Under the pieces are notes generated by a model. That model was not told the origin of the DNA. It saw only the letters and a list, made by a program, of their open reading frames with translations, and made no database searches. This document shows positions 12,690 to 27,009 of a DNA stretch of 64,000 bases, piece after piece; positions within the stretch are counted from its first letter, which is position 1; the number at the start of each line of letters is the position of its first letter. The position numbers and the translations under genes are program-made. The DNA is from Polaribacter septentrionalilitoris (lineage in GTDB: Bacteria > Bacteroidota > Bacteroidia > Flavobacteriales > Flavobacteriaceae): contig NZ_VRMJ01000004.1 in assembly GCF_009832745.1 (NCBI RefSeq), forward strand, positions 1 to 64,000, read 5' to 3'.

Positions 12690-14003
12690 ATGAGTGCAAC
12701 AACAGCTTACGTACCATTTAAAGTTAAAGATATTTCTTTAGCAGACTGGGGAAGAAAAGAAATTGAATTGGCAGAAGCAGAAATGCCAGGGTTAATGAGT
12801 TTGAGAGAAGAATATGGAGATGCTCAACCTTTAAAAGGAGCAAGAATTGCAGGATGTTTGCACATGACAATCCAAACTGCAGTTTTAATTGAAACATTAC
12901 AAGCTTTAGGAGCTGAGGTTACTTGGAGTTCTTGTAATATTTTTTCTACCCAAGATCAGGCTGCTGCTGCAATTGCTGCTACTGGAACTCCTGTTTACGC
13001 TTGGAAAGGAATGAACGAAGAAGAATTTGATTGGTGTATTGAGCAAACCTTATTTTTTGGTGAAGATAAAAAGCCATTAAATATGATTTTAGATGATGGT
13101 GGAGATTTAACAAACATGGTGTTAGATAAATATCCAGAATTGGCTGAAGGAATCAATGGATTATCAGAAGAAACAACAACTGGAGTTCACAGATTGTACG
13201 AGCGTGTAAAAAACGGAACGTTACCAATGCCAGCTATCAATATTAACGATTCTGTGACAAAATCAAAATTCGATAATAAATACGGTTGTAAAGAATCTGC
13301 GGTAGATGCGATTAGAAGAGCAACAGACATTATGTTAGCGGGTAAAAGAGTTGTGGTTTGTGGTTATGGTGATGTTGGTAAAGGTACAGCTGCTTCTTTT
13401 AAAGGTGCAGGCTCTATTGTTACTGTTACAGAAATAGACCCAATTTGTGCGTTACAAGCAGCTATGGACGGTTTTGAAGTGAAAAAATTAGAAACTGTGA
13501 TGGGTAATGCAGATATTATTATCACAACAACAGGAAATAAAGATATCGTAAAAGCGGAACATTTTCAAGGCGTAAAAGACAAAACAATCATTTGTAATAT
13601 TGGACATTTTGATAACGAATTGGACATTGCTTGGTTAAATGATAATTATGGCGATACTAAAGTAGAAATCAAACCTCAGGTTGATAAATATACCATTGAT
13701 GGAAAAGACATCATCATTTTAGCAGAAGGACGTTTGGTAAACTTAGGTTGTGCAACTGGGCACCCAAGTTTTGTAATGTCTAACTCATTTACCAATCAAA
13801 CGTTGGCGCAAATTGAACTTTGGAACAATGCTGATGCTTATGAAAATAAAGTATATATGTTACCAAAACATTTAGATGAAAAAGTGGCAAAATTACACTT
13901 GGCTAAAATTGGTGTAGAGCTTACTGAATTACGTAACGATCAAGCAGAATATATTGGTGTTACTGTAGAAGGTCCTTATAAACCTGAGCATTATCGTTAC
14001 TAA
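12690..14003 (+). CDS. ahcY: Adenosylhomocysteinase (S-adenosylhomocysteine hydrolase)
   Basis: The 437-residue protein is nearly invariant in family motifs: [40 protein letters not shown], the NAD-binding loop [20 protein letters not shown] (about 222-241) and the C-terminal KPEHYRY that reaches into the partner NAD site. It splits S-adenosylhomocysteine into adenosine and homocysteine in the methyl cycle. The length is full and the start follows a clear -7 box. It is transcribed alone and is followed by a terminator at 14098-14130. Confidence 0.98.
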
Positions 14004-14059: not shown

Positions 14060-14088
14060 TGTCATTTCGACCTTGTGGAGAAATCTCA
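14060..14088 (+). repeat. Interspersed repeat A, intergenic copy
   Basis: TGTCATTTCGACC, then GGAGAAATCTC, matches in both arms the repeat copies at 24680-24707 (in tilS) and 26552-26574 (in pabB). The central part differs between copies. Confidence 0.65.
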
Positions 14089-14139: not shown

Positions 14140-14158
14140 CCTGCCTGCTGCAGGCAGG
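14140..14158. repeat. GC-rich palindrome, REP-like
   Basis: CCTGCCTGC-T-GCAGGCAGG is a perfect 9-bp inverted repeat around one base. It stands out in this AT-rich sequence. Only one copy was found in the window. Confidence 0.7.
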
Positions 14159-24100: not shown

Positions 24101-25429
24101 TTAGATAACCAGAGAGATTTTTAAAACTGAATTGGATTCTTTTTTGGTTATAAAACGATTGTCAGAACGATGTCCTATAATCCAAATGATAGAATCGTTA
24201 TTATTACACAATAGCCAAGTGTTTTGCTTATCGATTAAAGAAAGTTTTTCGTCTTTAAAATATTTGCTAATTTTCTTTTTTCCCTGCATTCCTGATGGAT
24301 AAAAAACATCTCCATTTTGCCATTTTCTTAGTTTTAATGGAAATTCTAATTCGTTTTTATCTAAAAAAATAATTTCTTTAGAATGTAAAGATGGATTTTT
24401 TACAGTTTCAAACTTGAGATGAATAGGACTTGTAATTTCAGTGGTATTTTCTACAATTTCAACTATTGTTTCTTGTTCAGTTGAAAAGCCCTTTTTTGTA
24501 AGAATTAAAAAATTTCTATCCTTTAATAAAACGTGAGTTTTAGAAAATACTTGTTTGCCAGATTGTGCAGAAAGTAAGTTGTATACATCATTCCATTCTG
24601 TAAAATTATAATCTTTAAAAAACTGATACAGATATGCTTTTGGATTAGACAATTGATTAATTTTATCAATATTTAATTTTGTCATTTCAAGTGAAGTCGA
24701 GAAATCTTTTTGAATAATTTCTTTAGAAACTTTCTGGATTCTATCCTCAATAATTTGCTGACTTTCTTTTAAGTGATTTGTAGTTTTAGCAAAAGTTTCT
24801 AAAACACTTGGGTTAATTTCTTTTAAAACAGGAACTACCTGATGTCTAATTTTATTTCTAATATATTTGGTAGACGCATTGCTTTGATCTTCTCTCCATT
24901 TGATATCATTTTCTTTGGCAAAATCAATAATTTCATTTCGAGAAAAGGGGATAAGAGGTCTAAGAATATTCCCATTAGTTTCAGGAATTCCAGTCAAACC
25001 ATCCAATCCAGTTCCACGAGTTAAATTGATTAAAAAAGTTTCTAAATTATCGTCAGCATGATGAGCAGTTAATACATACTCAAATTGATGTTTATTTACT
25101 AATGATTCAAACCAATTGTATCGTAGTTTTCTTGCAGCAATTTGTGTAGAAAGTTTATTTTTTTGAGCAAATTTGTTAGTTTCAAATTGTCTAGTAAACG
25201 TTTTTATATTGAGTTTTTCTCCAAGTTTTAAAACAAAGTTCTCATCTAAATCACTCTCTTTTTTACGTAATTTAAAATTACAATGAGCCAAAGAAATATT
25301 AAAATTTAAAATTGATAAAAGATGTGTTAAAACGACAGAATCAACTCCTCCAGAAATGGCAATCAATAGTTTTTTATCCTTTAGAAAAGGAAATTTTGTG
25401 TTGATGTGATTTGAGAATTTTTGCTGCAT
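24101..25429 (-). CDS. tilS: tRNA(Ile) lysidine synthetase
   Basis: The 442-residue protein carries the PP-loop AISGGVDSVVLTHLL (about 24-38), AHCNFKLR, LTAHHADDNLETFL, RPLIPFSRNEI, and a C-terminal TilS domain (KKISKYFKDEKL). It converts C34 of the AUA-reading tRNA to lysidine, an essential step. Residues about 241-249 (DFSTSLEMT) are encoded by a copy of interspersed repeat A at 24680-24707, in the linker after the catalytic domain. It follows the 79-residue gene by 22 nt in the pabB operon. Confidence 0.95.
   Translation of the reverse strand: MQQKFSNHINTKFPFLKDKKLLIAISGGVDSVVLTHLLSILNFNISLAHCNFKLRKKESDLDENFVLKLGEKLNIKTFTRQFETNKFAQKNKLSTQIAARKLRYNWFESLVNKHQFEYVLTAHHADDNLETFLINLTRGTGLDGLTGIPETNGNILRPLIPFSRNEIIDFAKENDIKWREDQSNASTKYIRNKIRHQVVPVLKEINPSVLETFAKTTNHLKESQQIIEDRIQKVSKEIIQKDFSTSLEMTKLNIDKINQLSNPKAYLYQFFKDYNFTEWNDVYNLLSAQSGKQVFSKTHVLLKDRNFLILTKKGFSTEQETIVEIVENTTEITSPIHLKFETVKNPSLHSKEIIFLDKNELEFPLKLRKWQNGDVFYPSGMQGKKKISKYFKDEKLSLIDKQNTWLLCNNNDSIIWIIGHRSDNRFITKKESNSVLKISLVI
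24680..24707 (+). repeat. Interspersed repeat A inside tilS
   Basis: On the plus strand TGTCATTTCAAGTGAAGTCG followed by AGAAATCT matches both arms of the intergenic copy at 14060-14088. On the coding strand it is read in frame as DFSTSLEMT. The repeat is itself an imperfect inverted repeat. Confidence 0.7.
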
Positions 25430-25451
25430 TTACCCCTCAAAAATACCATTT

Positions 25452-25691
25452 TTATTTTTGAGATTTTAACCAAATACGAATCTCTTTTTTTAACGAAACT
25501 TCTGGCTTTGGTAGTGGAATAGTTTTTCCAAATTGCTTGCTTCTATTAAACTTAGAAAATGTAGTTTTTAGTTGTTTCCATTCTTCTGGATATAATTTAA
25601 TAAAAGCACTAAACATAGTCTGTTCAGTTACTTTTTCTTGTAAAGTTTCTAACGTTTTTTCAAAGAGTTCTTCTTGATTGATAATCATCAT
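25452..25691 (-). CDS. Small conserved-looking hypothetical protein between pabB and tilS
   Basis: The 79-residue protein starts MMIINQEELFEKTLETLQEK and is helical and charged, with a central FSAFIKLYPEEWKQLKTTFSKF. No signal peptide or membrane helix is visible. It begins 1 nt after the pabB stop and ends 22 nt before tilS, so it is translated as part of that operon. Either of two adjacent ATG codons could start it. I do not recognise the family; its fixed place in the operon is the best argument that it is real. Confidence 0.7.
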   Translation of the reverse strand: MMIINQEELFEKTLETLQEKVTEQTMFSAFIKLYPEEWKQLKTTFSKFNRSKQFGKTIPLPKPEVSLKKEIRIWLKSQK

Positions 25692-25692
25692 T

Positions 25693-27009
25693 TTATTTAG
25701 AATTTAACAACACATGTTTCATTGCTTTTGCTTTTAACAAACACTCTTCATATTCTTTTTCTGGAATCGATTTTGCTGTAATTGCACCTCCTACAGAATA
25801 CGATATGTATTTTTTAGCTTTATTATATAAAATACTTCTGATGATTACATTAAAATCAAAATCATTATCAGGTGTAAAATATCCAATTGCCCCAGAATAC
25901 AAACCTCGTTTTGTTGCCTCTAAGTTTTCTATAATTTTCATCGCAGAAACTTTTGGAGCGCCAGTCATACTTCCCATTGGAAAAGTATCTTTAAGTACAT
26001 CAATTGGATTTGTTTTAGATTCATCAATTTCTGAAACTACAGTAGAAATCATTTGATGTACTTGCTTAAAAGAATACACTTTGCACAATTCTTCTACTTT
26101 TACAGTTCCTTTTTTGGCAGACTTAGACAAATCGTTTCTTACCAAATCTACAATCATCACGTTTTCTGCACGTTCTTTCTCATCACGCATTAAATCATTG
26201 GCAATTTGAGCATCATCAATTGTGCTAATTAAGCGTTTTGCGGTTCCTTTTATAGGTTGAGAAATAATTTTCTCACCTTCTTTTCTGATGTATCTTTCTG
26301 GTGATGCACACAAGGCATACTGCTCGTCAACTTTTAAAAATGAGGCAAAAGGAGGTTCTGAAATTTGATTGAGGTGTTTGTAAACTTCAACAGGATTTAT
26401 GCTGCTATTTTCAGCATAAAACTCCTGACAAAAATTGGCTTCATAAATATCTCCTCTATGAATGTGATCTAATACTTTTGTAACTTTAGCTTTGTATTCA
26501 TCCTTATGAATTCTAAGTTTTATTTTGATATCATTATTTGGGTTATCAAGGTTTTTCGATTGCGCTCGAAATGAAAAATTAGCAATTGCATTAAAATCAT
26601 CATCAATTTCATCATCAATAAATTTTAAATAATGAAACTCTGCAGTCTCACCTTTAATAAAAATTAGTTTTTTAGGCTGAAAAAAATACAAATCAGGAAA
26701 ATCTAATCCGTCAAAATTTGTTGAAGAAAGGTTTTCTACATCATTTTTAACATCATAAGTTATGTATCCAAAAATATAATCTTTGGTAGTAGTTTGATAT
26801 TCTTTTAGCTTGTCAAACGCATTGGTGTAATCTGTTTTGATAGAGGTAAAATCATCAGCAGCCAAAGCACAATCAAAACTTGTGTATTGTTGTTGGTAAT
26901 TGTTAGAATCTAACCAAATAACGGTTTCATATTGTTGAGACCAACACAAAAGATTGTGCTTGAATTCACTAATATTATCAACAGAAAAAGTACATATGGT
27001 TCTTTGCAT
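25693..27009 (-). CDS. pabB: Aminodeoxychorismate synthase component I / chorismate-binding enzyme
   Basis: The 438-residue protein belongs to the anthranilate/aminodeoxychorismate/isochorismate synthase family. The C-terminal catalytic half shows IHRGDIYEANFCQEF, ASPERYIR, QPIKGTAKR, VDLVRNDLSK, FPMGSMTGAPKV and GLYSGAIGYF. No trp genes or glutamine amidotransferase are adjacent, and the sequence is closest in layout to PabB for p-aminobenzoate and folate synthesis. Residues about 146-153 (FSFRAQSK) come from a repeat A copy. A leftward -7 box TATTTTTG (27018-27025) precedes the ATG. Confidence 0.9.
   Translation of the reverse strand: MQRTICTFSVDNISEFKHNLLCWSQQYETVIWLDSNNYQQQYTSFDCALAADDFTSIKTDYTNAFDKLKEYQTTTKDYIFGYITYDVKNDVENLSSTNFDGLDFPDLYFFQPKKLIFIKGETAEFHYLKFIDDEIDDDFNAIANFSFRAQSKNLDNPNNDIKIKLRIHKDEYKAKVTKVLDHIHRGDIYEANFCQEFYAENSSINPVEVYKHLNQISEPPFASFLKVDEQYALCASPERYIRKEGEKIISQPIKGTAKRLISTIDDAQIANDLMRDEKERAENVMIVDLVRNDLSKSAKKGTVKVEELCKVYSFKQVHQMISTVVSEIDESKTNPIDVLKDTFPMGSMTGAPKVSAMKIIENLEATKRGLYSGAIGYFTPDNDFDFNVIIRSILYNKAKKYISYSVGGAITAKSIPEKEYEECLLKAKAMKHVLLNSK
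26552..26574 (-). repeat. Interspersed repeat A inside pabB
   Basis: On the coding strand TCATTTCGAGCGCAATCGAA followed by AAA reads in frame as FSFRAQSK. It matches the outer arms of the copies at 14060-14088 and 24680-24707 and lies in the opposite orientation to the tilS copy relative to the gene. Confidence 0.65.

Follow-up and report, generated by a model that had tools for sequence, protein, structure and literature searches.

A TGTC-tagged palindrome read in frame inside conserved genes of Polaribacter: a probable mobile repeat in variable protein linkers

How does a short palindrome come to be translated within two protein-coding genes, in opposite orientations, without disturbing either reading frame? 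The question is raised by a stretch of 64,000 nucleotides from the flavobacterium Polaribacter septentrionalilitoris (contig NZ_VRMJ01000004.1 of assembly GCF_009832745.1, positions 1 to 64,000, forward strand), the whole of which we call the window. An earlier note on this DNA had proposed that a small mobile repeat is inserted in the genes tilS and pabB and is read through in tolerant linkers, and this proposal is supported by the copies that we recovered, their frames and the corresponding empty sites. We consider it probable (at about 0.8) that the repeat is a mobile palindrome tagged with TGTC and resembling the repetitive extragenic palindromic (REP) sequences, which enters genes in frame, is nearly neutral in variable linkers or turns, and whose host linkers are hit again. 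The relevant features of the window are as follows.

14060-14087, plus strand: type B palindrome TGTCATTTCGACCTTGTGGAGAAATCTC, in the intergenic gap after a 437-aa open reading frame (ORF) ending at 14003
24101-25429, minus strand: tilS, encoding a tRNA(Ile)-lysidine synthase of 442 aa (Pfam ATP_bind_3 and TilS_C)
24680-24707, plus strand: type A palindrome TGTCATTTCAAGTGAAGTCGAGAAATCT, within tilS; its minus-strand reading, DFSTSLEMT, forms TilS residues 242-250
25693-27009, minus strand: pabB-type gene for a chorismate-binding enzyme of 438 aa (Pfam Anth_synt_I_N, 75-121, and Chorismate_bind, 169-426)
26551-26575, minus strand: diverged type A palindrome TTCATTTCGAGCGCAATCGAAAAAC, within pabB; reading SFRAQSK, at about residues 146-152

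All three reported copies are thus present, two genic and one intergenic, and the tilS and pabB copies are indeed opposite in orientation relative to their genes while both remain in frame. In PabB the insert falls between the Anth_synt_I_N and Chorismate_bind matches. Two descriptions given in the earlier note need amendment: its "essential-type genes" do not properly include pabB, which is not generally an essential gene, and its "one short repeat" is a shared palindrome that comes with two loop types, B at 14060 and A in tilS and pabB, whose rates of occurrence within genes differ strongly. A 29-letter pattern for type A, with up to three mismatches allowed, matches the window once, at the tilS copy, and gave no match in 100 shuffles. 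An Rfam scan of the window returned no family at the gathering threshold. A second palindrome, CCTGCCTGCTGCAGGCAGG, is found at window positions 14140-14158, shortly after the type B copy and in the same gap.

Scanning the whole genome (3.45 Mb in 49 contigs), a check that the earlier note had suggested, brought to light more copies, several of them genic and in frame. There are 13 exact copies of the pattern as against four for a control read backward, and the diverged pabB copy is additional to these; in five relatives (G021, G005, G015, G001 and G009), with the TGTC tag required, 134 copies were found versus three in the control. The further in-frame copies of the own genome include those in kmo (read as CHFERSREI) and purL (VISSGVEKS), and a type B copy in a gene for a MeaB/methylmalonyl-CoA mutase fusion (VISTEMEKS). 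Queries with tilS, kmo and part of purL gave one match apiece in this genome, so the decorated copy is in each case the only one found.

The repeat has a regular layout, with TGTC followed by a 5-bp stem, GA, the loop, a second GA and the complementary stem, type A being a 28-bp monomer. The tag is seen at 14060 and 24680; of the 13 own pattern copies, 12 show it in their sequence context, and it is missing from the remaining one (L004) and from the pabB copy; the tail is mostly CT(C). As the search pattern fixes the repeat's own TTTC stem, we measured covariation on a sister class, TGTCAnnCTGA. Both of its free stem letters are complemented in all 37 copies, with nine different letter pairs, where shuffling yields 6 on average and 14 at most, and the preceding A is complemented as well in 33 of the 37; some of these copies are tandem and hence non-independent.

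Comparison with relatives exposes empty sites. Among 30 kmo orthologs (the own gene and 29 from congeners, collected by protein search), five have the insert intact (one with two changes), one has it decayed (G020) and 24 have none; three of the last group (G019, G023 and G040) have additional residues of another kind. Where the decorated gene has 30 nt, there are 15 nt in G021, G009 and others, so that the insert amounts to a net gain of five residues. In the C-terminal part of kmo, the DEVHTHLNMT of some relatives corresponds in several others to residues similar to DISTSLDMT, at the same length, and the latter resemble the reverse-strand translation of the repeat. The alignment of TilS, likewise proposed beforehand, shows the type A peptide to be absent from 29 of 29 relatives, with only a decayed counterpart in G005; in the tilS of G013 another, degenerate insert is visible by eye, and none in that of its near relative G021. 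The net gain in tilS is four residues; PurL of the own genome is also four residues longer than in G021, G001 and G004, and one G021 gene has gained a net 21 nt (seven residues, counted by eye) relative to G013. Alignments to solved structures agree in part: the insert of a UDP-GlcNAc 2-epimerase corresponds to an 8-residue gap in the solved homolog, that of valyl-tRNA synthetase (ValRS) falls within a gapped stretch and that of Kmo adjoins a 5-residue gap; for pabB and tilS the insert site was not resolved in such alignments. A CoaBC case shows almost no net gain over the solved structure and is at odds with plain addition. Overall, the measured cases show a net gain of about 4-8 residues, and that one almost none; the earlier expectation of added length is borne out, but not as a clean gain of 8-10 residues.

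The palindrome is found in a broad set of proteins. We submitted 20 host proteins, chosen among the genic copies and including the TilS and PabB of the window, to Pfam in two batches, and obtained matches for nine of ten and eight of ten, those without a match being L336, L109 and L119. The hosts include TilS, PabB, Kmo, PurL, MetH, an E2 acyltransferase, a MobA-like transferase, a Kdo-transferase-type protein, ValRS (with a type B copy), a CCA-adding-type polymerase, two sugar-nucleotide epimerases, an aminotransferase and a protein with a CoaBC-type DFP domain. In the E2 acyltransferase the insert separates the E3-binding and catalytic domains, and in PurL it directly precedes the glutamine amidotransferase domain. 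The inserts probably lie on the protein surface. At the MobA-like site of G005 and G013 (L375 and L406) a further palindrome-like peptide (PFDCTQGDN, PFDCAQGNN) stands beside the type A copy; it is absent from L333, L346 and L356.

The same linkers are occupied by different palindromes in different species. The linker of PabB, the second protein for which an alignment had been suggested, is variable, with no palindrome in some relatives and other palindromes in others: the own genome and G015 have type A, G020 a reversed TGTCAGGTTGAG type, G009 TGTCACACTGAG, and G013 and G021 a TGTCAAACTGAG-type palindrome. In the purL linker, type A in the own genome is matched by a decayed type A in G013, a decayed different palindrome in G015, and two elements, including a reversed type B, in G005, where the linker is 25 residues longer than in G021; by eye, none was recognized in the other 17 parsed loci (two of the 23 loci were not parsed). 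Similarly, an aligned site in metH has the repeat forward in G005 and reversed in an Allomuricauda metagenome-assembled genome (MAG), and the site in the mutase fusion has type B in the own genome and type A in G015. Both orientations are found inside genes, as the earlier note had anticipated. In a 400-kb block shared by G013 and G021, nine palindromes (five and four) were found as against 0, 0 and 1 in Markov-shuffled controls; eight of them were mapped, and two are common in kind to both species. At two intergenic places of G013 (C1:3322795 and 3374444), G021 has, by eye, a different palindrome.

To what extent the repeat is genic depends on its loop. We read in context 159 distinct TGTC-tagged copies, comprising 12 of the 13 own copies (without L004), the 134 from the five relatives, and 13 chosen from G051, G013, G042 and G039, eight of which were picked because they are type A; a copy counts as genic if the ORF around it is at least 150 aa long and extends 25 aa beyond it in both directions. 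By this measure, 22 of 36 type A copies but only 6 of 123 type B copies are genic (Fisher p = 1.5e-12). The contrast persists when the chosen places are excluded (18/28 and 6/118) or only singletons are counted (21/35 and 6/95). The 22 genic type A copies include five kmo and five MobA-like orthologs and so represent 14 host genes, and among the six genic type B rows two, L348 and L391, may carry the wrong label, their loops being similar to type A. The sister class is genic in 3 of 35 copies. Hence, the earlier statement that such repeats are usually intergenic applies to type B and fails for type A. Stop codons do not account for the difference, because both types have mostly open frames, five of six in the type A consensus and four or five of six in the three type B consensuses. 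The genic copies are read in three forward and two reverse frames in many unrelated hosts. For comparison, such ORFs contain 65% of random positions drawn from the same loci and 61% of the type A copies.

The pattern is matched in 81 of 97 genomes (own included), with counts of 0-176 within the genus and of 0-7 outside it, the control giving at most 11 in any genome. As the outside counts are mostly no higher than those of the control, the signal belongs, at this pattern, to part of the genus. The highest count comes from G051, which has 176 pattern matches, with tandem runs at a period of 101 bases (e.g. contig C1, 569273-569598 and 619850-620276). The GTDB genome set contains the exact 28-mer TGTCATTTCGAGCGNAGTCGAGAAATCT in at least 120 stretches. 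By record title, 76 of the 120 stretches listed are from Bacteroidota, spanning several orders, 42 are from other phyla and two are unspecified (counted by hand); among the 42, 30 are Clostridia and the rest belong to Planctomycetes/PVC (Planctomycetes-Verrucomicrobia-Chlamydiae), Treponema, Calditrichaceae, Chloroflexota and two candidate divisions. We make no cross-phylum claim, because the non-Bacteroidota records are MAGs or have unclear titles and mis-binning is possible. Across these listed matches genic copies are clearly depleted, unlike within the genus: 29 of 130 copies lie in ORFs as defined above, and in 80 listed loci 23 of 86 copies do so versus 72% of random positions, with the proviso that some of the ORFs may be spurious.

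These observations suggest that the repeat moves as a DNA hairpin, landing in genes in either orientation and being read through, for which type A is suited since five of its six frames are open. Judging from the four cases compared, some 30 bp brought in would replace about 9-18 bp of the target. Out-of-frame or harmful insertions would be lost, and the survivors would be those in variable linkers or turns within domains, nearly neutral for the enzyme, with other palindrome types hitting the same linkers again in either orientation. Several findings weigh against this scheme. The predicted folds of single copies are no better than those of shuffles (z from -1.20 to +0.70, with 4-7 pairs), and the case for a hairpin is accordingly carried by covariation. 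By eye, no target-site duplication, a feature of miniature inverted-repeat transposable elements (MITEs), was seen at the kmo site or at the G021/G013 site, where, however, the flanks have diverged. In MetH, the MobA-like protein, the epimerases and the DFP protein, the insert lies inside the Pfam domain match rather than between domains. Type A is hardly depleted in ORFs, exceeding what random insertion followed by purging predicts. The third positions of the kmo insert are more conserved than expected of a drifting neutral linker. Finally, in the search for a transposase, PF01797 (Y1_Tnp) had no match at E 0.001 in G021, which has 52 pattern matches and is a single contig, and neither the repeat nor the named sister classes occur within 900 bp of the locus center at any of 31 Y1_Tnp loci.

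The conservation in kmo raises the possibility, which we regard as tentative, that intragenic copies are actively rewritten to near the consensus, by ectopic gene conversion or repeated re-insertion, with the linkers serving as lasting landing sites. In four species, a set chosen after the fact, the insert is identical at 28 of 28 positions, being the only invariant 27-nt window of 460, and its third positions agree in nine of nine cases versus 63-68% elsewhere. It ranks first of 461 both overall and at third positions among the five intact orthologs; with the decayed G020 copy added, it still ranks first at third positions but drops to 25th of 461 in overall identity. The MobA-like site is similar in pattern (insert identity 0.89-1.00 versus 0.82-0.92 elsewhere), with the reservation that these loci were found through the repeat pattern, a choice favoring intact copies. 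That one site can hold loop types A and B in different species is likewise in keeping with rewriting. Such conservation is not universal, however, since decay is seen in the G005 tilS, G013 purL and G020 kmo copies. It is conceivable, if somewhat doubtful, that the linkers are long-lived docking sites, emptied and refilled by different palindromes, with genic copies rewritten to consensus; were this so, a spacer would become the most conserved DNA of its gene, and a process acting on the DNA, blind to the protein, would shape protein linkers. The high synonymous-site conservation in kmo could also mean that inserts are retained for a benefit, e.g. as a regulatory mRNA hairpin or a binding peptide, but the many unrelated hosts, the use of five frames, the decayed copies and the lack of an insert in most kmo orthologs make this improbable. 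That the genic peptides are native protein sequence, similar to the repeat by chance or convergence, has in its favor the look-alike at the second kmo site, which leaves the length unchanged in several relatives; against it are the differing lengths of insert-bearing and empty alleles in kmo and the 2-epimerase, the shorter purL linkers of relatives, the different palindromes within one linker in pabB and purL, and the pattern's absence from shuffles, and we give it hardly any credence.

Alternatively, the repeat may be a RAYT/Y1-transposase REP whose transposase is carried by the same genome; its architecture recalls that of REPs tagged with CGTC (PMC3733652). PF01797 is matched in 43 of the 97 genomes, the own included. 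Of these we inspected 31 loci, only the best one per genome; a looser stem search gave single unlike hits in four of the 31 loci. Also in favor of this reading, a sister-class copy lies about 1.2 kb from the own Y1_Tnp gene. At this locus (L015, G000:C26:272568-275909) the same 33-base palindrome, AGACCTCACAGGTTTTAAAAACCTGTGAGGTCT, stands on either side of the gene (1264-1296 and 1884-1916), and the two together resemble a transposase and the repeat that belongs to it, distinct from the TGTC repeat. The absence of the repeat from all 31 loci and the want of a PF01797 match in five repeat-bearing genomes (G001, G017, G020 and G022 at the same threshold, besides G021, with 12-52 pattern matches) render such a same-genome transposase unlikely. 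For the mobile TGTC palindrome that we favor, a mover could act from elsewhere or have been lost, or copies could arise by template switching during replication. As candidate vectors, phages and plasmids were set aside: the 28-mer gave no matches in viral contigs, and its only plasmid match was partial and weak (Sphingobium, 62% covered, E 0.1).

The consequences are in part practical. Core enzymes such as TilS, PurL, MetH, ValRS and the E2 acyltransferase are decorated in marine Bacteroidota, and caution is due with peptides of predicted proteins such as VISSGVEKS and CHFERSREI, which are repeat-derived. Orthologs with and without the insert can be paired as a natural experiment on how far proteins tolerate insertions, and the contrast between types A and B together with the kmo conservation makes the mechanism testable.

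Among known systems, the enterobacterial REPs are short hairpin-forming dispersed repeats that lie for the most part outside genes and are associated with a RAYT gene; the present repeat is likewise short and dispersed, with a probable hairpin, but shows no RAYT tie in the 31 loci. REPs seldom overlap coding regions according to a paper with a table that includes two Flavobacterium genomes (PMC12306157). Another close system is the CGTC-tagged REPs, which have a terminal CGTC, often TGTC and sometimes CCTC, occur also in Bacteroidetes and are in some cases found in ORFs, most in R. conorii (PMC3733652); Flavobacteria are not named among their hosts in the excerpts of that account. Our repeat resembles them in being a short tagged palindrome with stems starting in A-T, in forming dimers, in its Bacteroidetes hosts and in being partly genic, and the compensatory stem changes by which CGTC REPs are recognized are present in the sister class (37/37). 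It differs in having a 5-bp stem with GA...GA, versus an 8-9 bp stem and 4-5 bp loop, and a CT(C) tail where theirs is mostly CCA-like (PMC3733652). The Rickettsia palindromic elements (RPEs) have been described in frame in 19 reading frames, with a decorated guanylate kinase being translated and remaining active at changed substrate affinity (PMC2229807); like them, our repeat is an in-frame palindrome in conserved protein genes (PMC3733652, PMC2229807, PMC2267715), at 28 bp instead of about 95-146 bp (PMC2229807, PMC2267715). The contrast of types A and B recalls the 107-bp and 155-bp forms of the Neisseria NEMIS/Correia elements, of which the form with an open frame is genic and the other nearly all intergenic, a split that follows stop codons there, unlike here, where both loop types are mostly open (PMC2229807). 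Among the open-literature matches listed, there is no report of in-frame TGTC palindromes in Flavobacteriia, and those containing pieces of the repeat as text concern, by title, unrelated subjects. The kind of element is thus already known from the in-frame palindromes first described in Rickettsia and from the CGTC REPs, and to it are added here the 28-bp size, a loop type that is genic, and linkers that are re-occupied.

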